Source: a virus. Taken from it: a stretch of DNA of 33,453 nt. Where the stretch lies: IMG/VR virus record IMGVR_UViG_3300032265_002079, positions 1-33,453 of that record; one strand, written 5' to 3'. The translations under genes were made by a program, and so were the position numbers. This document shows, piece by piece, positions 4,121 to 33,453 of the stretch (positions within the stretch are counted from its first letter, which is position 1; each line of letters opens with the position of its first letter). Below the pieces are notes generated by a model. It made no database searches. It worked only from the letters and a program-made list of their open reading frames with translations, and was not told the origin of the DNA.

Positions 4121-4158
4121 ATCAAAATAAACAAATATAATACTTGACGTGATAAATA

Positions 4159-4196
4159 AAACTGTGTATAGTTAACTCTATGCACAGTTTTTCTTT
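4159..4196 (+). terminator. Rho-independent terminator after the terminase/structural block
   Basis: A 13-bp stem (left arm 4159-4171, right arm 4178-4190, one G:T wobble) with a 6-base loop is followed by TTCTTTT. It separates the late block from the gp32-UvsX replication/recombination operon. Confidence 0.85.
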
Positions 4197-4252
4197 TAGT
4201 CAGTAGGCTTTAAGAAATGGCATAACAAAGGCACATTATCAAGGAGATTATT

Positions 4253-19502: not shown

Positions 19503-21028
19503 TGATTAAATTTGTAGTTGTAGGCGGCGGAACTGCTGGGTGGCTTACTGCCCTCTTTTTAAAAAAGAACATAGCATACAGTAAGGTAACTGTAATTGCC
19601 AGTGACGAGATAGGAATATTAGGTGCAGGCGAAGGTACCAATTGGGATTTTATAAAATTCTTACAAGAAATTGATATTCCGGTCGATCAGGTTATTAAAC
19701 ATGCTAAGGGTACGTTTAAGAATGGTATAAAGTTTTCCAATTGGAATGGCGATGGAACACATTATTACCACCCCTTCTATGATCACCTAGGCAAGGAAAC
19801 AGATCCAGAAAAAAATCGGTTTGATCCGATTCCGTTTTATCTTCACAAACTTGTCGATAATAAAAATTTTAATGATTTGCAATTTACAAGTATTATATCA
19901 GAAGATAATCGTGTAAAATATGTCAACGATACACAAGAAGAATTAGGGTTAAGTGCATTGCATTTTGATGCTAATCTGCTAGCACAGTATCTACAAAGCG
20001 TAGGCATTGAACGAGGAATTGATTTGATCGACGACGAAGTTGTAGAAATCATTACGAATAAAAAAGGTGATATCTCTGAGCTTCAATTAAAATCAGGCAG
20101 TGCATGCGAAACAACATTTGTATTTGATTGTACAGGATTCAAGAGGCTTATCATTGGTGATTTCTACAAATCTGAATGGATCGATTATCAAAACAGTCTG
20201 CCCGTAAATAGAGCCATACCGTTTTTTATTGAGCATGATAATCAAGAAATTCCGCCATACACTGAAGCTATTGCTATGAAGTATGGGTGGATGTGGAAAA
20301 TTCCTGTACAAGGTAGATTTGGGTGCGGATATGTATTTGACTCTAGAGTAGTATCAGACGATGCCATAAAACAAGAGATTAAAGAATATCTTGGATTTGA
20401 ACCAGACTTTCCTAGAGTATTTGATTTTAAACCTGGCGTGTATAAAGATGTATGGATCAACAACTGTATTGCAATTGGATTAAGTTCGGGATTCGTTGAA
20501 CCGCTTGAAGCAACATCAATACAAGTATCGACTTTTGCACTACGTTCTTTTGCATTTAGAATCAACGATATGATTAGAAATCGAAAAAATACATCTGCTG
20601 AATTTAACAAAGAAATGAAACAGGTAAATGATCATATTTTGAGTTTTTTGCATTTTCATTACCTATCAAAGCGGAACGATACCGAATTTTGGAAACTGTT
20701 TTCAGAAAATAATGTTACTCCTCCCTTTGTTAAAAAGTTCGGGGAAATATCCAAAAAGTCCCTCCCGCAAGATCATGATTATGATTATTTGACCATTGCC
20801 ACATGCCCGATAGGTATTCCTCCTAAGAATCCTTTTACTGTTTATAATTGGCATATGGTAGGAGCAGGCATTAATTATTTTAGCTCAAGTATAACAAGCC
20901 GTCAACTTGAAAAATACAAGAATTTTGACATGGAACAACAAGAAGCTCGGCTTATATCGATTCTCAATACGGCAGCGGCGACCACTTACAAACACAGCGA
21001 TTATATTGAATACTTAAAACAATTATGA
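19502..21028 (+). CDS. Flavin-dependent (tryptophan-type) halogenase, copy 1
   Basis: 508 residues, as in PrnA/RebH-type enzymes. The FAD loop GGGTAG is at residues 8-13, and a Lys at 73 in the FKNGIKFSNW segment corresponds to the catalytic Lys (K79 in PrnA). The family WxWxIP motif is at 263-268. EPLEATS carries E336, aligning with catalytic E346 of PrnA. FADH2, chloride or bromide and oxygen would form HOX to halogenate an indole or another aromatic group. A flavin reductase partner is not encoded here. The context with a Trp-ending Cys-rich protein suggests peptide-bound Trp as substrate; free Trp is equally possible from sequence. Confidence 0.9.
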   Translation: MIKFVVVGGGTAGWLTALFLKKNIAYSKVTVIASDEIGILGAGEGTNWDFIKFLQEIDIPVDQVIKHAKGTFKNGIKFSNWNGDGTHYYHPFYDHLGKETDPEKNRFDPIPFYLHKLVDNKNFNDLQFTSIISEDNRVKYVNDTQEELGLSALHFDANLLAQYLQSVGIERGIDLIDDEVVEIITNKKGDISELQLKSGSACETTFVFDCTGFKRLIIGDFYKSEWIDYQNSLPVNRAIPFFIEHDNQEIPPYTEAIAMKYGWMWKIPVQGRFGCGYVFDSRVVSDDAIKQEIKEYLGFEPDFPRVFDFKPGVYKDVWINNCIAIGLSSGFVEPLEATSIQVSTFALRSFAFRINDMIRNRKNTSAEFNKEMKQVNDHILSFLHFHYLSKRNDTEFWKLFSENNVTPPFVKKFGEISKKSLPQDHDYDYLTIATCPIGIPPKNPFTVYNWHMVGAGINYFSSSITSRQLEKYKNFDMEQQEARLISILNTAAATTYKHSDYIEYLKQL

Positions 21029-21681
21029 AAGTTGAACAGGCCTTTGGTCATACAATAGTAAGAGTAGAATGTCCTGATGTAGAACTATATAAAAATGAGG
21101 ATTTGACCAAGGCAGTTGATCATGTGTTAAATCTTCCATATTTTAAAAACAGACTGCGTGGCTTCAAAGAAGATTCTTTAACAGGTGCTGGCCTAACGTC
21201 GGTAGGTCACGAATACCTGGCACTCTCAAATCTTCCTGGTTCCGGAAATTTAAATAAATGGGTCAAGGAACAAATGCTAATGGCCAAGCAAATATTTGAG
21301 ATAACAAAACCGGGCAATGATATTAAATTTAAAAGATCCTGGGCCAATAGATTATTTAAAGGTGCTCAAGGCAAATGTCATCAGCACATAAAAGTTGATC
21401 AGTACATTGCAGAATTAACCGACTATAGTTATGAAAATTTTTGTCCGGACATTGTAGGAATAATGTATGTTGACGTTCCTCCCGACTCTGCCGATCTAGC
21501 AATTATTAATAACGGTAGAGAAGATACCCGAGCATCGGATTATGTCGAAGATGACAAATATTATATCTCGCCAGTTGAGGGCGAACTAGTACTACACCTG
21601 CCAGATGTATGGCATGCAATAACATCGCATAACAGTGATCTACCAAGAAATGTTTATGTATTTGATGCAGATTTTGTATGA
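21025..21681 (+). CDS. Dioxygenase-like double-stranded beta-helix protein, tandem copy A
   Basis: 218 residues. SWANR (105-109) is followed by CHQH with H119 and H121, then GIMYVDVPPDSADLAI, GELVLHLPDVWHAI with H197, and R208 near the C-terminus. The order WANR, HxH, beta-helix strands, distal His and Arg matches the 2OG-Fe(II) oxygenase at 16151, so an Fe/2OG hydroxylase is likely, though the ligand set HxH rather than HxD is unusual. Overlaps the halogenase stop by four bases and the next, paralogous gene by four bases. Confidence 0.68.
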   Translation: MKVEQAFGHTIVRVECPDVELYKNEDLTKAVDHVLNLPYFKNRLRGFKEDSLTGAGLTSVGHEYLALSNLPGSGNLNKWVKEQMLMAKQIFEITKPGNDIKFKRSWANRLFKGAQGKCHQHIKVDQYIAELTDYSYENFCPDIVGIMYVDVPPDSADLAIINNGREDTRASDYVEDDKYYISPVEGELVLHLPDVWHAITSHNSDLPRNVYVFDADFV

Positions 21682-22265
21682 TAATCGAAGATATCTTTGG
21701 ACATAAAATCGTCCGTATACAATGTGCAGACAGCAGTTTATATAATAATACAGAACTAACTGCCAGCGTCGATCAAGTATTCAAGTTACCAGAAGTTAAA
21801 AAATTTAACAGCAATCGAGGATCGCAAAACGGCCACGGACTAACTTTTGTCGACCATCCCTACTTGTCGTTAGAACATTTACCCGGTGCTGGTTTATTAA
21901 TGAAATGGATAGCTGACCAGATGATAGCTAACACAGAACATACAGGTGTTACATTTGTTAGATCTTGGGCCAACAGAATATTCAAAGATTGTACGGGTAT
22001 GCTACATAATCATCTTGGATATGGGCATGTCGATATTACAGGAATATTGTATGTTGATGTACCAGCTCACGGCGCAGAATTAATTTTTGTACGGGACGGT
22101 GAAGCAGGAAAGTCTCACTTTGAGTATGCACCCGAGGATAGATACTGTATACAACCTATGCAAGGGGAATTGATATTACACGATTCTGCGGTATTTCATA
22201 CAGTGGGTCAACATGTGGTTGATATGACTAGAACTGTGTTTGTATTTGATGCAGTGTATAGTTAA
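21678..22265 (+). CDS. Dioxygenase-like double-stranded beta-helix protein, tandem copy B
   Basis: 195 residues, clearly a duplicate of the preceding protein. Both begin with (V/I)E-x-x-FGH-x-IVR and share SLxHLPG-type and SWANR-(L/I)-FK segments, then HxH (H110, H112), G-I-x-YVDVP, GELILH, distal H174, R185 and the end VFVFDA. Copy A has an extra 20 or so residues between the LPG and WANR segments and near HxH. Ends tail to tail with the minus-strand gene behind it, the two sharing a TTAA stop overlap. Confidence 0.68.
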   Translation: MIIEDIFGHKIVRIQCADSSLYNNTELTASVDQVFKLPEVKKFNSNRGSQNGHGLTFVDHPYLSLEHLPGAGLLMKWIADQMIANTEHTGVTFVRSWANRIFKDCTGMLHNHLGYGHVDITGILYVDVPAHGAELIFVRDGEAGKSHFEYAPEDRYCIQPMQGELILHDSAVFHTVGQHVVDMTRTVFVFDAVYS

Positions 22266-22639
22266 GATTTTTTAACAGCTCTAACCAGCTGTATTGATTT
22301 GCGTTTAATACGCTTTTCCGCAATTTCACTTAGATTAACAGTTGGTCCAAACACCAGATCAACATCCTTGCTATTGAATGTTTTTATAGCGTATCGGAAT
22401 AATTGCATTTCTTGTTTGAGAAAAATATTGATTGGAATTTTACGATTGCTTTCCCACCACCAAACTTCTCCCATTTCTAAAAATATTCGACGTTCGTCAT
22501 CACTTTTAAGCATTGATATATCGTATATACTAGCAACATAGGTATCAAAATTGATCACGATACCAACGTATTCAATATCATTTGATTTAATACAGGAGAC
22601 GAAAGGATAGTTGGCGTGGAACGTTGTGGGTGATGTCAT
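22262..22639 (-). CDS. Conserved hypothetical phage protein
   Basis: 125 residues from the ATG at 22639; a TTG six bases upstream is a weaker start. Features are EVWWWESNRKIPINIFL in the middle and a basic C-terminus LVFGPTVNLSEIAEKRIKRK that may bind nucleic acid or virion components. No function recognised. Transcribed against its neighbours, with an exact late box 35 bases upstream, so probably expressed late. Confidence 0.72.
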   Translation of the reverse strand: MTSPTTFHANYPFVSCIKSNDIEYVGIVINFDTYVASIYDISMLKSDDERRIFLEMGEVWWWESNRKIPINIFLKQEMQLFRYAIKTFNSKDVDLVFGPTVNLSEIAEKRIKRKSIQLVRAVKKS

Positions 22640-22643
22640 TGTC

Positions 22644-22651
22644 AATAAATA
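22644..22651 (+). promoter_or_regulatory. Late promoter-like box (AATAAATA) 5 bases before the ATG at 22657
   Basis: TAAATA core 5 bases before the start codon, predicting a leaderless or nearly leaderless mRNA. Lies inside a divergent promoter region facing an exact minus-strand late box. Confidence 0.5.
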
Positions 22652-22656
22652 CTCAT

Positions 22657-23499
22657 ATGCAAATTTTACCAGTTTATTTATATCCGAATGCTCTTGACGT
22701 TATATTAGATTTGGATCCCACTGTGCAAGGAGTTAATCAAGTTATGTATCAACGCGACCTAAAAATACAAAAAGGCATTAAAAACGAAGTTCGTATTCAG
22801 TTTAAGAACAGCGACCAAAAGCGAATCGGTATCAGCAGTACACTTACTTACACCTTTTCAATGTTTGACGCAGTTAATCAGAGACTGCTTATCGAAAAAC
22901 CTTTGCAAGTAATTGACGATGGCGTTACTACCAGCACTCGCGGATTGGCACTATTGGTATTAGATGCAAGCGATACATTGGATCTGACCAAATCCAGTTA
23001 CACCTACAGTATCAAATATGCCAACCCATCAAACGGTGATTATTTGCCTGCTTACAGCAATACCTATTACGGTATGAATGGTACATTGTACATTTCGGAA
23101 GATATACATCCTGTTCTACAACCTAGTCAGGAAGTGGCCAGCTTTCAAAAGAGTTTCAATGCCGCTACACAAAAATACGAACACAAGAGCGGCAACTTGT
23201 ATGCTTACCCAGAATACAATGGTAATAACGCACTACATACCGCGGCATATTACATGACCAATTTTAAAGGTACTGTATATGTAGAAGGAACGCTTTATAA
23301 TACACCAGACAGTTTTGATCGTTACAGCATAATCGATACTCGTCATTATAATGGATTCACTGGAATTGATGTGGTAAATTTTAATGGTGTATTCAGCTAC
23401 GTTCGAGTAATGTACATTCCAGACACAGCACCTGCCGGCGCAAACAACGACGACCCTAGTTTCTTCGGATCATTTGACAAGTTACTGTATAGATGCTAA
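22657..23499 (+). CDS. Putative virion structural protein
   Basis: 280 residues from the ATG at 22657; a frame extension to a TTG at 22624 runs through the promoter and is rejected. The sequence is beta-rich with many Tyr, Asn, Thr and Ser (TYTFSMFDAVNQRLLIEKPL, later NTYYGMNGTLYISEDIHPV), as in tail or neck proteins. I do not recognise the gene number. The late box and the composition support a structural role. The primase gene follows after nine bases. Confidence 0.7.
   Translation: MQILPVYLYPNALDVILDLDPTVQGVNQVMYQRDLKIQKGIKNEVRIQFKNSDQKRIGISSTLTYTFSMFDAVNQRLLIEKPLQVIDDGVTTSTRGLALLVLDASDTLDLTKSSYTYSIKYANPSNGDYLPAYSNTYYGMNGTLYISEDIHPVLQPSQEVASFQKSFNAATQKYEHKSGNLYAYPEYNGNNALHTAAYYMTNFKGTVYVEGTLYNTPDSFDRYSIIDTRHYNGFTGIDVVNFNGVFSYVRVMYIPDTAPAGANNDDPSFFGSFDKLLYRC
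22675..22682 (-). promoter_or_regulatory. T4-type late promoter on minus strand, exact TATAAATA
   Basis: Reverse complement of TATTTATA. It lies within the first codons of the plus-strand structural gene and 35 bases before the minus-strand ATG at 22639, so late transcription diverges here from overlapping units. Confidence 0.65.
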
Positions 23500-23508
23500 A
23501 CTAGTGCA

Positions 23509-24510
23509 ATGCACGAGATACAGGCATCTTTATTAGCCCTCCTACCCCCAAAAAGGAAACTAACAGCCGGTGGCTGGACCAGTTTCAATGCCCCTTGCTG
23601 TCATAACAGAGGAGAAAGCAGAGACGATCGTGCTCGCGGTGGAATTAAAACAGACGGCGACGGATTTGTCTATCACTGCTTTAATTGTGGATTTGCCGCA
23701 GGGTGGAGCCCTGGCAAATTACTGAGTAAAAATTCAAAAGATCTATTTAAATGGATCGGTATGCCAGAATCGGAAATTGGCAAACTTAATCTCGCCGCAT
23801 TAAAAACCAAAGACAGCATACCTGTACTTAAGAAACTAATAAATTTAGAATTAGTAGAAAAACCCTTACCTGAAGATTGTTTATCAATTGATCAGTGGAT
23901 TGCTGAAGGCGCTCAAGATACTGAATTATTAGATGTAATCGCATACTTGGTAGACGAACGCAAGGTAGGCTGGGATTGGTATCCGTGGCACTGGAGTGCG
24001 GCACCAGGCTTCCGTGACAGAGTCATTATTCCATTTTATCAAGATGGAAAAGTTGTAGGCTACACAGGTCGAAAAATAAAACCAGGCAAGCCCAAATACC
24101 TGACAGATAGTCAAAGTGGATACGTATTCAATATCGATGCACAAGGTTGGGACAGAAAATATGTTATCGTATCTGAAGGACAGTTTGATGCCATTGCAGT
24201 AGGCGGTGCTGGCATTATGACCAATGAGCCAAACGAAGCACAGGTGATGCGATTGAATGCACTAGGCAGAGAGGTTATTGTTGTACCCGATAAAGACAAG
24301 CCCGGAGCCAAAATGCTTAAGAGTGCTATTATCAATGGGTGGAGTGCTAGTCTTCCACCGTGGGAAGATGACATTAAGGATATCGCAGATGCAGTGAAAC
24401 GATATGGCCGGCTGTATGTATTATCCACAATCTTGCACTATAGAGTCAGTGGAGAGATAAAAATAAATTTACTTAAGAAAAAATTAGAAGCAATAAAAGA
24501 TGATGAATAA
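23509..24510 (+). CDS. gp61: DNA primase (T4 gp61-like)
   Basis: Makes RNA primers with gp41 at the fork. 333 residues (T4 gp61 is 342). The N-terminal zinc site is CCH at residues 30-32 and CFNC at 57-60. The TOPRIM-type core has VSEGQFDAIAVGG with the catalytic Glu, and VVPDKDKPG with the metal-binding Asp pair. Overlaps the helicase gene by 11 bases, reflecting the physical primosome partnership. Confidence 0.93.
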   Translation: MHEIQASLLALLPPKRKLTAGGWTSFNAPCCHNRGESRDDRARGGIKTDGDGFVYHCFNCGFAAGWSPGKLLSKNSKDLFKWIGMPESEIGKLNLAALKTKDSIPVLKKLINLELVEKPLPEDCLSIDQWIAEGAQDTELLDVIAYLVDERKVGWDWYPWHWSAAPGFRDRVIIPFYQDGKVVGYTGRKIKPGKPKYLTDSQSGYVFNIDAQGWDRKYVIVSEGQFDAIAVGGAGIMTNEPNEAQVMRLNALGREVIVVPDKDKPGAKMLKSAIINGWSASLPPWEDDIKDIADAVKRYGRLYVLSTILHYRVSGEIKINLLKKKLEAIKDDE

Positions 24511-25984
24511 AAAAGATAAAACTCCAAAACCCAACTATAACTTTGAGATGCAACAACTGTATCTTGAAATGTTTCTTTCAGATGCTGAAACATTTATTAG
24601 ATGTCAAAACATTTTTGATCCATTAAACTTTGATCAAAAATTGCAGGACTCTGCAGAATTTATTACCCGATATGTAGATGAGTATAAGGTAATGCCAGAG
24701 GCAAATATTGTCAACGCATCTACACGTAGTAACTTTAATCCAGCACAACTGCCTAGAGAAAACTACGAATGGCTAATGAACGAGTTTGAACAGTTTAGTA
24801 GACATAAAGGATTAGAGCGAGCCATTATCGAATCTAGCGATTTGTTAGAAGCAGGTGACTACGGTCCTGTAGAAAAATTAATCAAGGATGCCATCCAGAT
24901 CAGTTTGAACAAGGATATGGGCACAGACTATTGGGATGATCCCCGTGCTCGTTTAATGAAGCTTAAAGATAACAACGGGCAGATTAGTACAGGATGGCCC
25001 AGTGTTGATAGAAAGCTATATGGCGGATTCAAGCGTGGAGAATTGAATATTTGGTGTGCAGGATCAGGTGGTGGTAAATCGTTATTCTTAGCAAACCAGG
25101 GTGTAAACTTTGCTCAGGCAGGATTGAATGTATTGTACTTTACATTCGAACTTAGCGAAGAACTAGTGGGTATGCGTATTGATAGTATGGTAACTGGAGT
25201 AACTACTAGAGACATTTTCAAAGACCTAGATAATGTAGAAATGAAGGTTAAAATGATAGGGAAGAAGGCTGGCGGAATCCAGATAAAATACATGCCTTCT
25301 GGCAAGAATTGTAACGATTTGAGGTCGTATTTGAAGGAATATCAGGTCAAAACAGGCCTAAAACCTGACGTTTTATTAGTGGACTACTTAGACCTTATGA
25401 TGCCTCTATCGGTCAAGGTAAGTCCGAGCGATCTGTTTGTTAAAGACAAATATGTATCAGAAGAACTGCGTAATTTGGCCATGGAAACCCAGTGCGTAGT
25501 GGTTACTGCGGCACAGTTAAATCGTAGTGCGGTTGAAGAAATTGAGTTTGATCATAGCCATATTTCGGGCGGTTTAAGCAAGATCCAAACAGCAGATAAC
25601 GTGATTGGTATCTTTACAAGTCGTGCCATGAAGGAACGTGGACGCTATCAAATACAGTTTATGAAAACACGTAGTAGTAGCGGTGTTGGACAGAAAGTAG
25701 ACTTGGAATTTAACGTAGATACGCTGAAGATTAATGACCTAGGCGAAGAAGAAGATAACCGTAGTTTTAGTCAGGGTGGTGGAAATAATCAATCCAGCAA
25801 TACCAGTAACATATATGCAGGATTAAAACGTACCAGTACTGTATCAACTACTACAGATCCAGAAACTGGTGAAATACGTGATGTTGACCCAACGCAGGGT
25901 GTGAATATTAAACAGTTTAAAAATAAAAGTTCAGCGCCTGCGATACGCAATATGCTGAGTAATTTGAACCCGGAAAAAGATTAA
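24500..25984 (+). CDS. gp41: Replicative DNA helicase (T4 gp41-like, DnaB family)
   Basis: Hexameric 5'-3' helicase of the fork. 494 residues (T4 gp41 is 475). Walker A AGSGGGKS is at residues 187-194, Walker B PDVLLVDYLDLM follows, and the H4-type segment QLNRSAVEEIEFDHSHISGG and a RYQIQFMKTRSS arginine-finger region are seen. The C-terminal 80 residues are Ser/Thr/Asn-rich and probably disordered. The stop overlaps the minus-strand YqgE-like stop at a TTAA. Confidence 0.95.
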   Translation: MMNKKDKTPKPNYNFEMQQLYLEMFLSDAETFIRCQNIFDPLNFDQKLQDSAEFITRYVDEYKVMPEANIVNASTRSNFNPAQLPRENYEWLMNEFEQFSRHKGLERAIIESSDLLEAGDYGPVEKLIKDAIQISLNKDMGTDYWDDPRARLMKLKDNNGQISTGWPSVDRKLYGGFKRGELNIWCAGSGGGKSLFLANQGVNFAQAGLNVLYFTFELSEELVGMRIDSMVTGVTTRDIFKDLDNVEMKVKMIGKKAGGIQIKYMPSGKNCNDLRSYLKEYQVKTGLKPDVLLVDYLDLMMPLSVKVSPSDLFVKDKYVSEELRNLAMETQCVVVTAAQLNRSAVEEIEFDHSHISGGLSKIQTADNVIGIFTSRAMKERGRYQIQFMKTRSSSGVGQKVDLEFNVDTLKINDLGEEEDNRSFSQGGGNNQSSNTSNIYAGLKRTSTVSTTTDPETGEIRDVDPTQGVNIKQFKNKSSAPAIRNMLSNLNPEKD

Positions 25985-26535
25985 AACCAAACAGAGGTCT
26001 GCATTTTAACGCTTTCGTTTAAAACGGACCTCCACTGATCTTGATCAATAGTTGAAAATACGTTTTCTAGTGTAGCAGGTATTACTTCCCAACGATGTAC
26101 CTCTTTGCTAGGGTAATTTTTTGGATCAATTTGTTGTTCAAATCTTCCGTGTTCCCAAATCCAATAACCGACACAGCAACGATAAAACTCAGGGCCTTCG
26201 TTACGGCTGATAGCGGCTAACACGCTAATATCGTTAGTAACTCCTAGTTCATCGTTGATCTTGGTTGTGCTAAGTCCTTGCCAGTCTAGGCTATGTACCA
26301 CGTGTATTTTGTTTTGGCTAATCTGCCCGCCCCAAAATAAAGGTTCTGTACCGTCGTAGTCTATGCCTATGTTCTGGCATATTTGACCCAACGCAGGGCT
26401 GTCCATGAGTTGATTAATTTGTAAACCCACCGTGGTATCATTGTTGTTGGCTATTATCAGCACAACTGCATTTTCAGATCCATCTTTAGGGTTAGCCGGG
26501 TTAGCGGCAATCAAATGTCCTTGGTAGTTTTTCAT
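25981..26535 (-). CDS. YqgE/AlgH (UPF0301) family protein
   Basis: 184 residues from the ATG at 26535; the in-frame extension to 26577 crosses the promoter. Family landmarks in order are NYQGHLIAANP at the N-terminus, ENAVVLII, TVGLQINQLMD, LFWGGQISQNKIHVVHS (bacterial: GGP, then hH), then CCVGYWIWEHGRFEQQI (bacterial: GYAxWExGQLExEI) and a C-terminal WRSVL. Bacterial YqgE/AlgH has been linked to transcriptional regulation but has no settled biochemistry. Its presence in a phage, reversed between replication genes, is unusual. Confidence 0.75.
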   Translation of the reverse strand: MKNYQGHLIAANPANPKDGSENAVVLIIANNNDTTVGLQINQLMDSPALGQICQNIGIDYDGTEPLFWGGQISQNKIHVVHSLDWQGLSTTKINDELGVTNDISVLAAISRNEGPEFYRCCVGYWIWEHGRFEQQIDPKNYPSKEVHRWEVIPATLENVFSTIDQDQWRSVLNESVKMQTSVWF

Positions 26536-26542
26536 ATACGAG

Positions 26543-26550
26543 TATTTAAC
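26543..26550 (-). promoter_or_regulatory. Possible late promoter (GTTAAATA) for the YqgE-like gene
   Basis: TAAATA core on the minus strand, 7 bases before the ATG at 26535. It abuts a plus-strand box one base away. Confidence 0.4.
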
Positions 26551-26551
26551 C

Positions 26552-26559
26552 AATAAATA
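26552..26559 (+). promoter_or_regulatory. Late promoter-like box (AATAAATA) before the nucleotidyltransferase gene
   Basis: TAAATA core 8 bases before the ATG at 26568. Together with the minus-strand box it forms a compact divergent promoter of about 17 bases. Confidence 0.45.
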
Positions 26560-26567
26560 ACAGTACC

Positions 26568-27257
26568 ATGATAGCAAACGAATTCGCAGATCCCATAGAA
26601 CTACACCCTACCCTTAATCCAAAGTTATGGACTAATAATCAGCTACGTCCTGACGTTAAAAAAGCCCTGTTGCGTATTGCACAAGATTTTAAAGATTATA
26701 TCGGAGTTCCGTTTAAAGTTGTAGATGTACAAGTTGCCGGCGGCAATGCCAACTACACCTATACTGATCACAGCGATTTAGATCTACACCTAATAGCTGA
26801 CTTTGGTAGTGTACAATGCGATAGAGAAGCTGCCGAATTGTTCGATAGCAAACGCCTGTTGTACAAAGAACAATACGATGTCAAGATACATGGAATACCT
26901 GTAGAACTCTATGTGGAAGATCAAGATCATCCAGCGGTCAGTAGCAGTTATAGTTTGCTCGATAATCAATGGATACGTGAGCCCAAAAAAGAAGTTGCTG
27001 ATATCGATCGAGAAGAGATTGAACGCATGGCCGGTGTATGGCATAAGATAATTCAGCATGCTATTCAAACTGCTGATAGACACAGCTTGCAAAATGTGCT
27101 AAAATTGTTGCGTAAGTATAGAAAAATGGGTCTACAACAATCTGGAGAATTTGGTGTTCCTAACCTGGTTTACAAAAGCCTGCGTAATGACAATACCCTT
27201 AGAGGTTTGACTAGATTGCTAGACCGCTTACACGATCAAGAACTCAGCATAGGATAA
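26568..27257 (+). CDS. Predicted nucleotidyltransferase-fold protein
   Basis: 229 residues. The Pol-beta-type signature is GGNANYTYTDHSDLDLHLI at residues 58-76, with D70 and D72 as the metal pair and IPVELYVED supplying a third acidic position. The C-terminal half is helical and basic (NVLKLLRKYRKMG). This fold includes CCA-adding enzymes, antibiotic adenylyltransferases and MNT toxins. The first G-S of the usual GS motif reads GG here. Substrate unknown. The deoxyribonucleotidase gene starts two bases after its stop. Confidence 0.78.
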   Translation: MIANEFADPIELHPTLNPKLWTNNQLRPDVKKALLRIAQDFKDYIGVPFKVVDVQVAGGNANYTYTDHSDLDLHLIADFGSVQCDREAAELFDSKRLLYKEQYDVKIHGIPVELYVEDQDHPAVSSSYSLLDNQWIREPKKEVADIDREEIERMAGVWHKIIQHAIQTADRHSLQNVLKLLRKYRKMGLQQSGEFGVPNLVYKSLRNDNTLRGLTRLLDRLHDQELSIG

Positions 27258-27259
27258 AA

Positions 27260-27787
27260 ATGCCAACAATTTATATAGACATGGACGGCGTAGTAGCTGA
27301 TTGGGAAACTGCGGCTGAACAACATATTCAAAAACAAAAAGATATCAACAGCTTATGGCCCGACGAAGAATGGGAAAAGATTCGCAGTCTGGATCATTTT
27401 TATAGGCATTTGCCAGAAATGCCCAGAGCACAGGAACTGATGGCTCTAGCCCGTAGATTTAGAGATGAACTGGGATGGAACCTGTACATGCTCACAGCTA
27501 TTCCTCACAAGAACGACATGCATGAAGTATTCCATGACAAGATCGATTGGATGGCCGAACGCTGGCCAGAAATACGTGTGCATTTTGGCCCTTACAGCCA
27601 CGACAAGCATGTTCACTGCAAGCCAGGTGATATTCTAGTGGATGATCGTACCAGCAACTGTCAAGAATGGGCCCAAGCTGGCGGGATAGCTGTTCAAGTT
27701 ACCAAGGACTACGGATGGGCACTGCACCAGCTACAGCAGGTGTTTGATGCAGTCAAGGATACAGATAGTTCACCGATTCAGGGTTAA
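27260..27787 (+). CDS. 5'(3')-deoxyribonucleotidase-like HAD phosphatase
   Basis: 175 residues. HAD motif I is YIDMDGVVADW with nucleophile D7 and acid/base D9, motif II is MLTAIP, a Lys lies in the SHDKHVHC segment, and motif IV is GDILVDDRTSN. This fits the NT5C family that dephosphorylates (d)NMPs, consistent with pool adjustment during DNA synthesis. The last 35 bases overlap the 3' end of the convergent minus-strand gene. Confidence 0.85.
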   Translation: MPTIYIDMDGVVADWETAAEQHIQKQKDINSLWPDEEWEKIRSLDHFYRHLPEMPRAQELMALARRFRDELGWNLYMLTAIPHKNDMHEVFHDKIDWMAERWPEIRVHFGPYSHDKHVHCKPGDILVDDRTSNCQEWAQAGGIAVQVTKDYGWALHQLQQVFDAVKDTDSSPIQG

Positions 27788-28190
27788 CGCGGAAAATTTC
27801 AGCACCGTTTTTTAGATGGAACAGTCTGGCCATTTCGGTTGGCGGGCTTAGTGTAACAAACTCGTTGATGTAAGGGCGGTTGACTTCAATCCAGCCACGT
27901 GCAGATAAAATCAGTTTGCGTCCTGCTCCGGGTTGATAACTCCATATGGTGTAGAATACAGCAGTACCAGGATCAATAGGATCACGTGCTAGTTCATAAA
28001 CATCGGCTGGAATACTGTCTCTATAGGCCACACAAACGGCCGCCATGGGCTCGTTGGTTTCGTCATTGAGCATGACAAAGATTTCCGTAGTATCACCCAC
28101 TCTAAACTCTGCAGGAATATCCGGTCGTACAGGATCGTCTTTGATCAATCTAATCAATGGATCGGTAGTGCGTGTGATTACGTGTAACAT
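27753..28190 (-). CDS. Conserved hypothetical, possibly GNAT-like fold
   Basis: 145 residues, no firm family. The strand pattern AAVCVAYRDSIP, then GTAVFYTIWSYQPGAGRKLI followed by a helix, INEFVTLSPPTEMARLFHLKNGA, is like an acetyltransferase core, where a Q/GxxG-type loop precedes a helix and FHLKNGA sits where GNAT proteins have their late helix. The acetyl-CoA loop is not clearly met. Reverse-oriented late-region gene. No convincing promoter found in front. Confidence 0.6.
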   Translation of the reverse strand: MLHVITRTTDPLIRLIKDDPVRPDIPAEFRVGDTTEIFVMLNDETNEPMAAVCVAYRDSIPADVYELARDPIDPGTAVFYTIWSYQPGAGRKLILSARGWIEVNRPYINEFVTLSPPTEMARLFHLKNGAEIFRVNPESVNYLYP

Positions 28191-28259
28191 AAAATTCCCG
28201 GGAGTTATATCTGTACTTATCTACAGCATCAAAAAATGCTATGTTAATTGAAAAATGAA

Positions 28260-28267
28260 ATTAAATA
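28260..28267 (+). promoter_or_regulatory. Possible late promoter (ATTAAATA) 4 bases before the ATG at 28272
   Basis: TAAATA core directly followed by CCGT and the start codon. No Shine-Dalgarno is visible for this ATG, which fits the leaderless pattern seen at 22657. Confidence 0.4.
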
Positions 28268-28271
28268 CCGT

Positions 28272-29795
28272 ATGAAAATATGTATCTTGGGCGGAGGCAC
28301 CGCCGGATGGATGGCCGCACTATGTATCCAGAAGCGTCAACCCGAACACGAAATTATTGTAGTAGAAAGCAGTCGTATAGGTATCATTGGCACCGGTGAA
28401 GGAACCACAGGGCTATTTGCTGACATAATGAGCAAGGTGCTAGGACTGTCCGAAGAAGATTTTTTAATCAATACCGGTGCTACACAAAAACTGGGCAACA
28501 GGTTCCACAATTGGCGCGGTGACGGCACCAGCTTTATAGCACCCTTGGACAATACACATACATCACTTTCACCAGTAGATACTACACTGATATATCACTG
28601 TAGATATCACGAAAAAGATCAAGTACACCTAACTACCCAATGCGGACAACTGGCCGATCGCGGACTGACCAGTTTTAGACACGATGGTGGAGAAGTGTTA
28701 CCCATACACGGATATCATTTTGATGGACATCTAGTAGGAGCATATTTCAGACGTATCAGTGTTGCCCAAGGAGCTGAGGTAATTGACAGTGAATACACTC
28801 ATTGTAAACGCAGAGAAGACGGCAGTGTTGCGTTGATACATCTGGCCAACGACCAGACCGTTGAAGCAGACGTGTTTGTTGATGCCACTGGTTTTGCTAG
28901 ATGCCTAGGACAAGAAGTAGGAGCAGGTTGGCACAGTTTCAGCGACAGTCTCAGTTGCGATCGTGCCATGCCGTTCCATTTGCCGCATTTGCCTAAAATA
29001 GACGCCTTGACCGAAGCCCATGCATTGTCATCCGGCTGGATGTGGCGCATACCCGTGCAGGCACGTAGAGGATGCGGCTATGTGTTTGACAGCAATTTTA
29101 TCACTGCTGATCAAGCACAGGCAGAAATAGAAACAGTACTAGGGCACCCGATTGATCCTATCAAAGTCATCAAATTTGAACCAGGACGAGTAGAACATAC
29201 CTTTTGCCACAACGTGGTCACTATAGGGCTTGCCGGTTGCTTTTTAGAACCCTTGCAGGCCACCAACCTACACGGCACCTTGATACAGATACAAAAGATG
29301 GTGGAGTATTGGCTACGCCCTGAGGGCTTGGCCGGCCCGCTGGAAACCAAAAATCTAAACAGGGAAATCACTCGCGTGTTTGATGATTTTGCCAATCTTA
29401 TACAGATACACTATCACAGCGGCAGATCAGATACCGAATTCTGGCGCCATCAGCAGGCAGTGCCACTGTTGCCCACAGCGGCCACCATGCAGGAAATCTG
29501 CCAGCGCCGATGGCCCGTGCATGATGATTGGGCACTAAAGGGTGCGGCCGGCTACGGTGTCAGCATATATCCCATGATCGAGTACGGCTGGTTGGATCAG
29601 GCCATCAAACAGGAAACGCTGGCCAATCTCGACGGTGTTCGCCAGCAGTACCAGCGCGAGGTCTCGCATGCAGAAGAAATCAGTCGCGGAGCCATGTCGA
29701 ACACAATTTTGGTAAATCGACTAAGACAGCAGGGCGCCATAAGGCCCAGAACCATACCTGCTGATCTACGCAAACTGTTGGAGTTGGGACAATGA
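28272..29795 (+). CDS. Flavin-dependent (tryptophan-type) halogenase, copy 2
   Basis: 507 residues from the ATG at 28272, which gives the family-standard start MKICILGGGTAG; an extension to 28248 adds eight atypical residues. K73 lies in TQKLGNRFHNW, and W256-x-W258-x-IP is in SGWMWRIPVQAR. The position of catalytic E346 of PrnA reads Gln329 (EPLQATN), so chemistry may be changed or reduced. Related to copy 1 throughout but clearly diverged and noticeably more GC-rich (31 of 60 bases in the line at 29401, against 19 of 60 at 20041). Coupled by ATGA to the SGNH-like gene. Confidence 0.88.
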   Translation: MKICILGGGTAGWMAALCIQKRQPEHEIIVVESSRIGIIGTGEGTTGLFADIMSKVLGLSEEDFLINTGATQKLGNRFHNWRGDGTSFIAPLDNTHTSLSPVDTTLIYHCRYHEKDQVHLTTQCGQLADRGLTSFRHDGGEVLPIHGYHFDGHLVGAYFRRISVAQGAEVIDSEYTHCKRREDGSVALIHLANDQTVEADVFVDATGFARCLGQEVGAGWHSFSDSLSCDRAMPFHLPHLPKIDALTEAHALSSGWMWRIPVQARRGCGYVFDSNFITADQAQAEIETVLGHPIDPIKVIKFEPGRVEHTFCHNVVTIGLAGCFLEPLQATNLHGTLIQIQKMVEYWLRPEGLAGPLETKNLNREITRVFDDFANLIQIHYHSGRSDTEFWRHQQAVPLLPTAATMQEICQRRWPVHDDWALKGAAGYGVSIYPMIEYGWLDQAIKQETLANLDGVRQQYQREVSHAEEISRGAMSNTILVNRLRQQGAIRPRTIPADLRKLLELGQ

Positions 29796-30625
29796 CACGC
29801 ATAGTGACCATAGGCGACAGCCACGGCGGCATATTCCAGGATCTGGCACCACGCTGGACCACCTACAGTGATGCATTCACAGCCGAAAGATTTTGTACCG
29901 GATTCCCGGGCATATGGCAAGAAATGACTCCTTGGCTGGCCCAGCAACATGCCACACACCTGGTTGTGTGTGCAGGCGAAATAGACATACGCGGACACTG
30001 GTGGCGTCACATGCCCAGACAAGCCGACGAACCCATAGCTGACTACATCGCAGCCAGAGCAGGAGAACTGTATCAAGCAGTGGAGGATCTGGCCGATCGT
30101 CTGGGTCTAGAGCGTGTGGTCATATGGGGACCACCTCCGGCTACTGATCGAACCACATATAACCCGGATTGGCCTTTCGTGGGCCCAACTACCACTCGTA
30201 ATAGACTGATAGATGCCTACAATCATGCCATGATCGAGAGATCAACAGACAGAATAGCCTATGCCACTGCTTTCTACGACTATGTGGATCGGACCACGTT
30301 TGAAACTGTGAACTATACAGAAACTGACGGAGTACACTATTTCCCCACGCTAGGTCCACAGTTTTGGACAGGTTTAATATTGCCAGCACTAAGTGGATTC
30401 CAACAGCATTTACCACCCGAGCAAGAACTGGTGTATCAAGAACACCCGGCCGAAAGCAGAGGCTTGTATGATACCTGGATACGCACCCAAGACCTCACAC
30501 AGCCAGTCCAATCAAGAACCACCCACGTAAACAACATTCAGTACACATACATGACCATTAGGGACAACTGGAGCCAGTGGCCAAAAACCTATCGTGAGTT
30601 GGGGTTGCTAGGGCCCAGGCCGTAG
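29792..30625 (+). CDS. SGNH-hydrolase-like protein
   Basis: 277 residues. IGDSH at 7-11 gives block I with Ser10, CAGEIDIRGHW about 60-70 stands where block III has GxND, and DGVHY at 179-183 gives the Asp179/His182 pair of block V. Together these suggest a GDSL/SGNH esterase, though block III is degenerate. Overlaps halogenase copy 2 by four bases, so the two act in one unit. Deacylation or deacetylation of a modified product or a surface sugar is possible. Confidence 0.7.
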   Translation: MTRIVTIGDSHGGIFQDLAPRWTTYSDAFTAERFCTGFPGIWQEMTPWLAQQHATHLVVCAGEIDIRGHWWRHMPRQADEPIADYIAARAGELYQAVEDLADRLGLERVVIWGPPPATDRTTYNPDWPFVGPTTTRNRLIDAYNHAMIERSTDRIAYATAFYDYVDRTTFETVNYTETDGVHYFPTLGPQFWTGLILPALSGFQQHLPPEQELVYQEHPAESRGLYDTWIRTQDLTQPVQSRTTHVNNIQYTYMTIRDNWSQWPKTYRELGLLGPRP

Positions 30626-30627
30626 AA

Positions 30628-30648
30628 GCGCGAAGCGCGAAGCGGTCA
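30628..30648. repeat. Tandem GAAGCGC repeat in the convergent gap
   Basis: GAAGCGC twice plus GAAGCG, just behind the SGNH-like stop. It can fold into small GCGC hairpins with a GAA loop. The 60-base gap to the convergent minus-strand gene may serve as a terminator, but there is no clean U-tract. Confidence 0.4.
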
Positions 30649-30685
30649 TAAAGCAAAAATTTCGTCAGACCTTTAACCGCGTATA

Positions 30686-31036
30686 TTATAACAAGTGTTG
30701 TGCTAGTACCATACAGCTAATCCAAGCCCACAGTGTGTTAAAGCCTACTAGAGTGGGTAACAGTTTGCGGTTACTTGCCCATATAAGCGATAAGCTAGTA
30801 GCTAGTGTAAACCAGTATAGCCACCATAACTGTATGCCAAACACTAGTCCGGGCACAATGATCACAGCTTTGGTCGACCAGCTTAGTGCTTCAATCACAT
30901 TGTAGTCAGTCCAGTAACTGCGCTGAAACCACATGGCGTAGCACTCCTTAATGCGTGACCAATGACATCTAGCGTAGACTACAGCTACGAGAATGAGCCA
31001 TACAGCGGTTGCTAGAGTGACTTGCGGAATGGTCAT
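30686..31036 (-). CDS. Small multi-spanning membrane protein
   Basis: 116 residues from the ATG at 31036; the longer frame to 31099 overlaps the upstream gene too far. Three hydrophobic stretches about 5-21, 57-80 and 92-113, the second rich in Trp, suggest an inner-membrane protein. Start overlaps the upstream stop (ATGA). No family recognised; an early membrane-acting phage protein is plausible. Confidence 0.65.
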   Translation of the reverse strand: MTIPQVTLATAVWLILVAVVYARCHWSRIKECYAMWFQRSYWTDYNVIEALSWSTKAVIIVPGLVFGIQLWWLYWFTLATSLSLIWASNRKLLPTLVGFNTLWAWISCMVLAQHLL

Positions 31037-31218
31037 AGTGATCGTTCCAGAACATATACAGCTAGTGCTAATAGCACTGACACAGCCACCCACAGCCACT
31101 GTGATACTCTAGTTTCAGATTCACGGGGCACTGGATACCATGTGTCAAAGTCTGGGTCGTAGCGATAGAGTCTGCCGCGAATGAGTTCGGTTTGGTTGTA
31201 TAGATCGGGTTCTGTCAT
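31033..31218 (-). CDS. Small tail-anchored membrane protein
   Basis: 61 residues from the ATG at 31218: a polar N-terminus (MTEPDLYNQTELIRGRLYRY) and one C-terminal hydrophobic helix about 40-56 ending in ERSL. It is preceded by a sigma70-type promoter whose start point lies only a few bases from the ATG. Coupled to the downstream membrane-protein gene. Confidence 0.65.
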   Translation of the reverse strand: MTEPDLYNQTELIRGRLYRYDPDFDTWYPVPRESETRVSQWLWVAVSVLLALAVYVLERSL

Positions 31219-31227
31219 AGTGTGTAC

Positions 31228-31257
31228 ACTATAGCATACTGTGAATAACAATGTCAA
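31228..31257 (-). promoter_or_regulatory. Sigma70-type promoter (TTGACA, 18 bp, TATAGT, extended -10)
   Basis: -35 at 31252-31257, -10 at 31228-31233 preceded by TGC. Points into the small membrane-protein pair with a very short or absent leader. Confidence 0.7.
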
Positions 31258-31260
31258 CCG

Positions 31261-31480
31261 GGAACCACAATTTACCAAGATTGTCCAGGCGGTCTATAGT
31301 GCGGGCAAAAAAATTGCTAAAAAAAATTTCACGACCCAGAATTTACCAGCCCGAGGTCTATACGTAGCCGAAAAATTGCCGCGCAAATAATGCCAGGTTT
31401 CGAGATCTAGATCTGCCAGGTTCTAATCTAAGTCGAGTATTTTTAAGGTGGGAATTTTTATGGTAAATTTTGCATGCGGT
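31261..31480. repeat. Repeat-rich non-coding region
   Basis: Part of a 336-base gap without a credible gene (31219-31554). It holds AATTTACCA at 31269 and 31340 with an inverted copy at 31461, GGTCTATA at 31291 and 31355, AAAAATTGC at 31309 and 31371, and TGCCAGGTT at 31391 and 31414 flanking the palindrome AGATCTAGATCT (31403-31414). The first three motifs recur in the same order about 62-71 bases apart, forming two imperfect tandem units with A-rich tracts. Confidence 0.6.
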
Positions 31481-31503
31481 AAAAGCGCAAGCATGCTTGC
31501 GCT
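31481..31503 (-). terminator. Rho-independent terminator of the minus-strand early block
   Basis: Perfect 20-base palindrome AGCGCAAGCATGCTTGCGCT (31484-31503); on the minus strand it is followed by TTTT. It lies about 50 bases after the stop of the 31555-31812 gene. A second hairpin GCACCC/GGGTGC (31511-31532) precedes it. Confidence 0.65.
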
Positions 31504-31554
31504 GTGTGTAGCACCCCCCGTACCCTGGGTGCCCCACCCCTCCCTACCTCTCCG

Positions 31555-31812
31555 TCAGATAGCGAAGCCTACCCGGCGTGCCTCATCGTACACAGGCACC
31601 AGTAGGTGTGTGAGCTCTTGTTGCTCCACCACGTCCATGGTCTGTTGCATGAGCTCTTCCACATGCTCGGGCTGTCCTGCATCGTGAGTGAACACAACCT
31701 CTATGCCGTGCTTGCGTAGCACCCTAGTGCGTGTGTAGGCATCGTTAGCATAGCGTACATCCATAGCGCCCGACTGTGTGCGAACTACGAGTACATATTG
31801 ATAGTGTGACAT
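31555..31812 (-). CDS. Small hypothetical early-region protein
   Basis: 85 residues, N-terminus YQYVLVVRT, then helix and strand elements (RVLRKHGIEVVFTHDAGQPEHVEELMQQ). No family recognised. It has its own consensus promoter and the shared leader, and is followed by a terminator, making it a monocistronic unit typical of early phage regions. Confidence 0.7.
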   Translation of the reverse strand: MSHYQYVLVVRTQSGAMDVRYANDAYTRTRVLRKHGIEVVFTHDAGQPEHVEELMQQTMDVVEQQELTHLLVPVYDEARRVGFAI

Positions 31813-31838
31813 AGTGTGTCCTTTGTTAGTGTGTGTAG

Positions 31839-31867
31839 ATTATAGCACAGGGCCGGAGCCCTGTTAA
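31839..31867 (-). promoter_or_regulatory. Sigma70-type promoter (TTAACA, 17 bp, TATAAT, extended -10) overlapping a hairpin
   Basis: -35 at 31862-31867, -10 at 31839-31844 preceded by TGC. A 7-bp stem ACAGGGC/GCCCTGT (31847-31853 with 31858-31864) fills the spacer and enters the -35. Leader contains ACACACACTAAC and AAAGGA. Confidence 0.8.
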
Positions 31868-31868
31868 G

Positions 31869-32189
31869 TTAGTCCAAGCGCGAGCCTGCATAGGCTGTCA
31901 AGCCCAGACTGCGTAGGTAAGCGGCATAGGCTTCAGCGCCTGCTTCCTTTACTGAGATGCTCTGTGTAGGCACACCAGCTGGGTCCCACATGCTAAGGCA
32001 TTTAGGTTTGTAGTCTTTGCGGAAGCCTGCCTTCAGTAGCTCTTTGGCCTGCTTGCTGTTGGTGCGATCCACATACACTTCTACCCAACCAAAGCCGCAA
32101 GCATCACGCTCGCCTACTCGTTGGTACATGGCTTGTCCGGCTTGCTCTGCGAACACTTTGCCTGCTTGGATGAATTCTGCTGTAACCAT
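31869..32189 (-). CDS. Hypothetical early-region protein
   Basis: 106 residues, no recognised family. Mixed alpha/beta with many Ala, Gly and Lys (GFGWVEVYVDRTNSKQAKEL). A good AGGAG lies before the ATG and an ideal promoter sits in the 3' end of the upstream gene. The product is probably made immediately after infection by host RNA polymerase; function unknown. Confidence 0.72.
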   Translation of the reverse strand: MVTAEFIQAGKVFAEQAGQAMYQRVGERDACGFGWVEVYVDRTNSKQAKELLKAGFRKDYKPKCLSMWDPAGVPTQSISVKEAGAEAYAAYLRSLGLTAYAGSRLD

Positions 32190-32222
32190 TTTGCCGCTCC
32201 TGTTTAGTGTGTGTAAGTATGT

Positions 32223-32251
32223 ATTATACTAGGCTTTGATCACTTTGTCAA
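32223..32251 (-). promoter_or_regulatory. Consensus sigma70 promoter (TTGACA, 17 bp, TATAAT)
   Basis: -35 at 32246-32251 inside the 3' end of the upstream gene, -10 at 32223-32228. Both hexamers match the bacterial consensus exactly. Drives the 31869-32189 gene. Confidence 0.85.
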
Positions 32252-32561
32252 TACGAACAATCATGCCCTGTGGCGTACTAACAACACTGTATCCACGCTC
32301 TCCAAACAGGGCTAACACCTGCTTGGCCAGTGCATCTCGAGCTCTGGCACCTTCTGCTTTGACAGCGATGAAGCGTTTGCGATAGTTGATGTAGAGCTTG
32401 TCGTAACGAAACGCTGAATCCAACAAGTCTCTCACAGTGAGTGCTGAGCGGATTTGCTCTGCCGTGTAGTGACTCTTGTTGTTGGTATTACGGCGCTGGG
32501 CATCACATGCCGCGGCAAATGCAAATCCGCCTGCATCTTTGGTATCTAGTTCTTTAAACAT
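32229..32561 (-). CDS. Hypothetical early-region protein, possibly nucleic-acid binding
   Basis: 110 residues from the ATG at 32561, which has AAGGAG six bases upstream; the open frame to 32621 runs through the promoter and leader and is not coding. Basic and Arg/Lys-rich in the middle (RYDKLYINYRKRFIAVKAEG). No family known. Carries the promoter of the next gene in its last codons. Confidence 0.72.
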   Translation of the reverse strand: MFKELDTKDAGGFAFAAACDAQRRNTNNKSHYTAEQIRSALTVRDLLDSAFRYDKLYINYRKRFIAVKAEGARARDALAKQVLALFGERGYSVVSTPQGMIVRIDKVIKA

Positions 32562-32592
32562 TTCCGGCTCCTTTTTGTTAGTGTATGTGTGT

Positions 32593-32621
32593 ATTATACA
32601 CAAAAGGAAAGGGGCTGTCAA
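32593..32621 (-). promoter_or_regulatory. Consensus sigma70 promoter (TTGACA, 17 bp, TATAAT) with -35 in a terminator loop
   Basis: -35 at 32616-32621, -10 at 32593-32598, both exact consensus. The -35 hexamer falls in and beside the 4-base loop of the hairpin at 32608-32629. The transcript leader again has ACACACATACACTAAC then AAGGAG. Confidence 0.85.
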
Positions 32622-32629
32622 GCCCCTTT
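32608..32629 (-). terminator. Terminator hairpin after the MPNW gene, overlapping a promoter
   Basis: 9-bp stem AAAGGGGCT/AGCCCCTTT, 4-base loop, about 22 bases after the stop of the upstream gene. On the minus strand it runs into TTTCCTTTTG. Confidence 0.7.
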
Positions 32630-32651
32630 GGTGTTGTATTTCGGCAACAGA

Positions 32652-33311
32652 TTATTCGTCTGCTTCTTCGTCTTTCTTCAACCCTTCTTCAATGGTAAAC
32701 GACCCCGGAGTGGCAAACTCATGCGGAGTCTCATCATATTCGTCTTCGTTCTCTGCTTCGTATTCAGCCATGCACTCGCTGATGCCGTAGGCTTCGTCCA
32801 AGTGTTCGGGCAGTTGTTCACGCACCTGCTCGCTGTTCATGTCGCTCAAGTCGTAGTAGTCATCTGCTCCGTCTTCCCAGATGCCTGCAAAGCACATACC
32901 GGGCTCGTAGTAACTGGCACGAACGGAGAAGCCTAGATCCAGCAGTTTCTCATAGAACTGTATAGGAGGCGCCCAGGCACTGTCAAACGCCATGATCAAG
33001 CCACCCGGAATGTCCTGTGCAGGGCCTAGATCATCCCCGCCCACATCCCACTTGGTTCCCCATTCGTTCACACAGTAGTCATACCAGTTGGCATAGCCAT
33101 ATTGGGCCAAGTTGGCCTCTTCCTGTTGCTCCAGCAAAACCTGACTGGGTTCACCATCAGCGCCAGCGCGGCCAGCCACGATATGCAGGCTTTCAGGCAC
33201 CGGCACAAACTCGTTGCACAGGCGACCTTCCTTGAAGGCAACCCGGGCCCGCTCAAGCATGGCAGGGTCTTCGTGAAGCAGTTCCAGTGTGTTATTGCAC
33301 CAATTAGGCAT
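32652..33311 (-). CDS. MPNW-type ferredoxin-fold-like phage protein (YubB/DUF1281-like)
   Basis: 219 residues. MPNWCNNTL at the start, EFVPVP, YGYANWYDYCVNEWGTKWD, AFDSAWAPPIQFYEKL and GMCFAGIWEDG are the landmarks of a family widespread in phages and plasmids and named for a ferredoxin-like fold; it does not bind iron as far as I know and its function is unsettled. The C-terminal 60 residues are very acidic. AAGGAG before the ATG, which overlaps the stop of the gene in front. Confidence 0.82.
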   Translation of the reverse strand: MPNWCNNTLELLHEDPAMLERARVAFKEGRLCNEFVPVPESLHIVAGRAGADGEPSQVLLEQQEEANLAQYGYANWYDYCVNEWGTKWDVGGDDLGPAQDIPGGLIMAFDSAWAPPIQFYEKLLDLGFSVRASYYEPGMCFAGIWEDGADDYYDLSDMNSEQVREQLPEHLDEAYGISECMAEYEAENEDEYDETPHEFATPGSFTIEEGLKKDEEADE

Positions 33312-33453
33312 CTGTGGTCTCCTTAGACATGTCAGTTAAAAAGTCAAAAATCTTACGCTCATACTCTGAAAGATCGTTCATATGGATCTCTACATAATCC
33401 TCATCATCCATATAATTGCCTGGTAGAGGAATAGCAATGAGGTAATCATCAAA
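33304..33453 (-). CDS. 3' end of an early-region gene, truncated by window edge
   Basis: The minus-strand frame is open from the window end and encodes at least 49 residues, ending FLTDMSKETTDA. Acidic and rich in Tyr and Asp. Its stop overlaps the start of the MPNW gene, so both were probably read from one promoter outside the window. Identity unknown. Confidence 0.65.
   Translation of the reverse strand, partial: FDDYLIAIPLPGNYMDDEDYVEIHMNDLSEYERKIFDFLTDMSKETTDA

Follow-up and report, generated by a model that had tools for sequence, protein, structure and literature searches.

The window, that is, the whole stretch of DNA analysed here, is a virus record of 33,453 bases (IMG/VR IMGVR_UViG_3300032265_002079). 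Its terminase is of the T4 type (match to the T4likevirus-type Pfam Terminase_6N) and finds matches in 2498 phage records; by this protein, the nearest isolates are PA5oct-like Pseudomonas phages, at 55% identity. The window phage is a large phage of the T4 type that was recovered in an environmental sample. The plus strand carries large genes, including the terminase and a tryptophan halogenase (28248-29795; PF04820, E 1.8e-92). The minus strand harbours a run of small genes, read from 33.3 to 30.7 kb (Table 1). Protein-family searches assigned no function to these small genes, and a megablast comparison of the region with isolated phages gave no match. Neither an Rfam family nor a tRNA was found within the window. 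Homologs of the 106-aa and 219-aa genes occur in the marine phages HTVC026P, CRP-9, CRP-13, HMO-2011 and CRP-207; their presence in phages of unrelated genome size suggests wide exchange.

An earlier, sequence-only reading placed four near-consensus sigma70 promoters ahead of the small minus-strand genes. This is confirmed; the four sites (P1 to P4) match the consensus at 11 or 12 of 12 positions, and they are the best four among 38 promoter-like sites found in 20000-33453 by a lax criterion (shuffle mean 30.3). All four are presumed to fire early. The leaders of P1, P2 and P3 have a (C/T)ACACTAA-like sequence in common, followed by a GGA-type ribosome site. The claim of a shared leader holds in this looser form: the exact string ACACACACTAAC is found at P3 only, P1 having ATACACTAACAAAAAGGAG and P2 ACACACACTAAACAGGAG, and P4 is without such a leader. 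Instead, P4 leads directly into the ATG at 31218 (TATAGTGTACACACTATG) with no ribosome site; its message would be almost leaderless, unlike those of P1 to P3. Upstream of P4 lies a noncoding stretch of about 225 nt (31258-31483) that contains runs of A/T and two copies, 71 nt apart, of a 16-nt direct repeat (GAACCACAATTTACCA / GACCCAGAATTTACCA). It is possibly a regulatory or replication-related sequence.

Hairpins overlie two of the four promoters. At P1, the −35 element sits within a 9-bp hairpin, as had been described, with the correction that the loop is TGAC, closed by pairing of the first T with the last A of the −35. The first stem base lies 25 nt past the start of the upstream stop codon. 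The 56-nt P1 segment has an MFE of −18.2 kcal/mol (z −4.15), and none of 200 shuffles was as good. The 7-bp hairpin across the −35 and spacer of P3 is likewise borne out, by folding (z −3.62; 1 of 200 shuffles as good) and by stems that covary in relatives; it begins 7 nt past the start of the 106-aa gene's stop codon. The same folding and shuffle test gives no hairpin at P2 (z +0.14) or P4 (z +1.24). The picture of promoters fused to hairpins applies to P1 and P3, and fails at P2 and P4. The gene that precedes P4 ends in an ordinary, separate hairpin with a TTTT tail. Elsewhere, the plus strand has a 13-bp terminator-like stem (AAACTGTGTATAG-TTAACT-CTATGCACAGTTT, then TTCTTTT; 4144-4197) in the gap that separates genes 1427-4120 and 4253-5248. 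Within it lies the −10 of a site resembling a promoter (TTGACG-17-TATAGT), possibly another terminator-promoter overlap.

Table 1. Genes, promoters and hairpins of the small-gene region of the window.
Feature	Position	Strand	Description
219-aa gene	32652-33311	-	PHROG 20518/12644; 3' end abuts P1; relatives found
Unit 1 hairpin	32608-32629	-	AAAGGGGCT-TGAC-AGCCCCTTT, 9 bp, tail CCTTTTGTG (tail also written CCTTTTG)
P1	32621-32593	-	TTGACA-17-TATAAT, 12/12; −35 at hairpin apex; T-containing tail in spacer
110-aa gene, predicted to be driven by P1	32229-32561	-	ATG 32561; SD AGGAG 32572-32568; homologs found
P2	32251-32223	-	TTGACA-17-TATAAT, 12/12; overlaps end of upstream gene; no hairpin
106-aa gene, predicted to be driven by P2	31869-32189	-	PHROG 22149
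P3	31867-31839	-	TTAACA-17-TATAAT, 11/12; hairpin across −35 and spacer
Unit 3 hairpin	31847-31864	-	ACAGGGC-TCCG-GCCCTGT, 7 bp
85-aa gene, predicted to be driven by P3	31555-31812	-	Leader ACACACACTAAC-AAAGGA
Stand-alone terminator-like hairpin after 85-aa gene	31484-31503	-	Perfect 20-nt palindrome AGCGCAAGCATGCTTGCGCTTTT, then TTTT
P4	31257-31228	-	TTGACA-18-TATAGT, 11/12; no hairpin
61-aa gene, predicted to be driven by P4	31033-31218	-	ATG 31218; near-leaderless start

Early-gene loci of related phages were collected by taking homologs of the 106-aa and 219-aa genes as anchors, without reference to promoters. In a total of 1377 kb, these loci contain 613 distinct 12/12 promoters; the 1071 kb collected around terminases have 18. 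Several long contigs have their promoters gathered in a single block, as at 27-39 kb in G009 and 110-122 kb in G012, each about 12 kb long. Removal of near-duplicates gave a test set of 610 nonredundant promoters with a 17-nt spacer. As a control, right halves were exchanged between promoters, which keeps all positional composition. Against this half-swap (n = 610), stems of at least 8 bp are in clear excess in the −35/loop (25 vs 2.7), spacer (34 vs 2.2) and upstream (48 vs 7.1) registers, and few in the leader (3 vs 0.3). Segment shuffling gives a similar picture for stems of at least 6 bp, with 142 vs 64 upstream, 55 vs 22 with the −35 in the loop and 60 vs 10 in the spacer; leader hairpins, the negative control, show no excess at this length (6 vs 6). 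The centres of the spacer hairpins peak at +12.5 (30 vs 6.1) and +13 (21 vs 2.5) from the −35. Stems of 7 bp or more are present at about a quarter of the strong promoters (163 of 610). The unit was to be given up if other early gaps and related phages lacked the hairpins; this is not the case, and in relatives they recur well above chance. About 11% of the 610 promoters have, in addition, a fixed spacer motif, GGTAAAAC(C) (GGTTGACAnnTGGTAAAACC...TATAAT), which is absent from P1 to P4 and may be an operator or a mini-hairpin with the loop AAA.

The position of the hairpin relative to the promoter depends on where the upstream gene stops. A stop codon at −60 to −30 goes with an upstream hairpin (60%), one at −30 to −15 with a hairpin that has the −35 in its loop (28%), and one at −15 to 0 with a spacer hairpin (25%). 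Whatever the register relative to the promoter, the median distance from the upstream stop to the start of the stem is 10 nt, and 68% of stems start within −3 to 22 nt of the stop, compared with 27% when stops are reassigned. Spacer hairpins are found at 28 of the 227 promoters with an adjacent stop and at none of the 182 without (p = 3e-8). Taken over all classes, hairpin frequency differs only weakly between promoters with and without an upstream gene end (30% vs 21%, p = 0.09); the contrast is carried by the spacer class. Because the register follows the upstream stop codon, the hairpin belongs to the end of the upstream gene: it is that gene's 3' end, and in short gaps it comes to overlie the following promoter. 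This supports a stop-and-restart function, and argues against control of the promoter by a cruciform or other regulatory structure. Coding constraint contributes, since coding sequence cannot easily hold a hairpin and the anchoring to the stop is partly forced; it cannot account for the absence of spacer hairpins at wide-gap promoters.

The gap that follows the 106-aa gene, homologous to the P3 gap, was read in 96 relatives. Some have hairpins with the −35 at the apex (AAGGGCGTTG-ACTAA-CAGCGCCCTT, GAACACGTTG-ACAAA-CAGCGTGTTC), and others have spacer hairpins (ACACGGAG-TCAA-CTCCGTGT, ACAGGATG-GCAA-CATCCTGT) or a hairpin that ends at the −10 (AAGCCC-GCAA-GGGCTT); still others have plain U-tailed terminators after the same gene. 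Covariation was assessed in 20 distinct sequences (19 relatives and P3 of the window), picked by promoter-to-stop distance and not by hairpin. In these, 83.8% of the cells are paired, compared with 63.8% in shuffled alignments, and both sides have changed in five of eight pairs. The covariation score of 0.478 was reached in 0 of 500 shuffles (0.166 shuffled), and slid controls gave at most 0.212. The promoter hexamers stay fixed while the stems covary. Among the −35-apex lineages, 13 of 16 have stems of at least 7 bp (1.85 expected by control). The four-base loops of spacer hairpins are of the GNRA type in 11 of 19 cases, against a background of 4.2%, which points to a hairpin that acts as RNA. 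The layout of a hairpin over a promoter is a real, conserved and space-saving design.

These observations are best explained, and quite probably so, if the hairpins are 3'-end hairpins of the upstream genes, likely terminators, that lie over the next promoter in cassettes of the PeSL (promoter-early stem-loop) type. The hairpin at the 3' end of an upstream early gene, most likely an intrinsic or near-intrinsic terminator, would overlie the strong host-sigma70 promoter that drives the following gene, as the two genes lie only about 40-90 nt apart. Incoming RNA polymerase would transcribe the hairpin and be stopped or released inside this promoter, and fresh polymerase would then start just downstream. 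At P1, the U-containing tail in the spacer could act as the release tail; spacer hairpins would need the A/U-rich −10 for this purpose. Each small gene would thereby form its own gene-promoter-terminator cassette, movable within the variable early region. The compact stop-and-restart unit proposed from the sequence alone stands as the best fit, given the median distance from the stop, the covarying stem, the GNRA loops and the U-tailed terminators in relatives; that the hairpins terminate transcription, and serve in shuffling, is what we infer from these features.

U-rich tails are enriched, relative to segment shuffles, at upstream hairpins (16% vs 5%) and at −35-loop hairpins (18% vs 7%). 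A canonical U-tract is missing from spacer hairpins, that of P3 among them (3% have 5 or more T in 8, shuffles 5%). This counts against the main reading, as does the limited share of strong promoters that have a stem of 7 bp or more, about a quarter in relatives and two of four in the window. Hairpins of the P3 type may terminate weakly, may use the −10 as their tail, or may only protect the 3' end. It is possible, if somewhat doubtful, that they represent a class of terminators without a U-tract, in which UAUAAU of the −10 is the release tail and ACA of the −35 and TG(T) of the extended −10 form the stem base. One 29-bp sequence would then code for a transcript end and the next start, with compensatory change across many phages and the register set by gap length.

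The lack of U-tracts at spacer hairpins and several −35-apex hairpins, which nevertheless keep their stems and GNRA loops, could also mean that the hairpin is a 3'-end stabiliser or processing site, i.e. a barrier to 3' exonucleases or a site of RNase cleavage, with messages that are read through or ended by Rho. This is rather unlikely, given the enrichment of U-rich tails at −35-loop and upstream hairpins and the textbook terminators that other relatives have at the same gene end. A dyad that regulates the promoter, be it a protein operator, a cruciform or a structure modulating the −35 and spacer, is favoured by the tight placement of centres at +12.5/+13 in the spacer class and by a separate fixed motif, GGTAAAACC, in many spacers. 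Against it, the arm sequences diverge freely and with compensatory changes, and the register shifts with the position of the stop. Stems of 7-9 bp are also short for cruciforms. Control through an operator or cruciform was rejected, as the dyad is anchored to the upstream stop and is not placed regardless of the upstream gene; regulation by such a dyad in general is quite improbable. The earlier suggestion that cruciform or RNA folding regulates the promoter finds no support in the distribution of spacer hairpins (none where no upstream gene ends at the promoter); moreover, the promoter's own transcript begins downstream of the hairpin.

Gene shuffling might in itself account for the hairpins, if they persisted mainly as recombination hot spots or repeated homology, with termination as a secondary role. 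The order and spacing of the 219-aa and 106-aa marker genes are indeed scrambled across relatives, and the 12/12 promoters are clustered in blocks, which marks a hyperplastic, gene-shuffled region of the kind in which PeSL cassettes lie. Two promoters of one relative's locus have exact strings in common, the longest with a median of 25 nt and up to 60 nt in clean cases; in RB49, the corresponding maximum is 43 nt. However, these strings lie mostly in the promoter and leader and not in the hairpin, whose arms diverge, and over the four promoters of the window the longest is 13 nt. This reading is very improbable. Chance overlap of promoter and hairpin in a compact genome would fit hairpins at only two of the four window promoters, but for the set of relatives it is refuted by stem enrichment and covariation, as measured against the swap, shuffle and slide controls, and its overall probability is negligible.

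Superimposed terminators and promoters have precedents, of which the sequence-only reading did not mention the closest, the PeSL cassettes. PeSL cassettes reportedly occur in the T4-type phages RB49, phi1, PST and nt-1, and Arbiol and co-workers are said to have found that the stem-loops are effective terminators and that recombination takes place between PeSLs. As summarised in later papers, PeSLs are composite promoter-terminator motifs of T4-type phages (Arbiol et al. 2010; Comeau et al. 2014; via PMC4503421, PMC5348500 and PMC3950731). The window units appear to belong to this known kind. In the window group as in RB49, a strong sigma70-like early promoter is combined with a stem-loop in the gaps of a variable early region. 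A scan of RB49 gave 72 near-consensus promoters, 10 with a spacer hairpin (TTGACAggggatcNNNgatccccTATAAT) and 9 with an upstream hairpin or terminator, and a common leader, ACACACATACCGAAAC..GGAG. The window group differs in its leader consensus (ACACATACACTAA..AGGAGC), in stem sequences that are far more diverse, whereas RB49 repeats ggggatc, and in the common −35-in-loop register, for which the two RB49 candidates seem to lie inside coding sequence. The two are also distant, the closest isolate to the window's group by terminase being PA5oct (55%). A search of viral contigs for exact RB49-type hairpin promoters matched a single contig, of 164.7 kb.

PA5oct itself, a Pseudomonas jumbo phage of the Arenbergviridae, has at 186478 a −35-in-loop terminator with a U-tract (aaaagggcacTTGACAagtgccctttttttgccaTATAAT), like P1. 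The unit is rare there, though; a hairpin touches the −35 or spacer in 4 of 48 near-consensus promoters. A scan of KVP40 revealed −35-in-loop units, and a scan of T4 gave 8 near-consensus sites and no comparable unit. In the archaeal myovirus HGTV-1, a TATA box-like region and an inverted repeat precede many ORFs, and its authors drew the comparison with PeSLs (PMC3950731). Here too, a promoter element and an inverted repeat go together, and they do so ahead of many ORFs in one half of the genome; the element is archaeal and TATA-like, whereas the window units are of the sigma70 type. Lambdoid morons are small genes carried with their own promoter and terminator (PMC1524935), in which they resemble the window units. 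Morons are insertions of foreign base composition between conserved genes; in the window group, such units make up an entire early region, and the terminator overlaps the promoter.

Among the works citing the primary PeSL papers, no earlier description was found of the stop-codon rule or of the wide stem covariation. The present analysis extends PeSL-type cassettes to a large, mostly uncultured group of environmental T4-type phages. With hundreds of natural variants, the dual coding of promoter and terminator becomes readable, with fixed hexamers, a covarying stem and a register that follows the upstream stop. The same variants offer a panel for studying termination from within a promoter, and the means by which phages insulate their small early genes without giving up the mobility of these genes.
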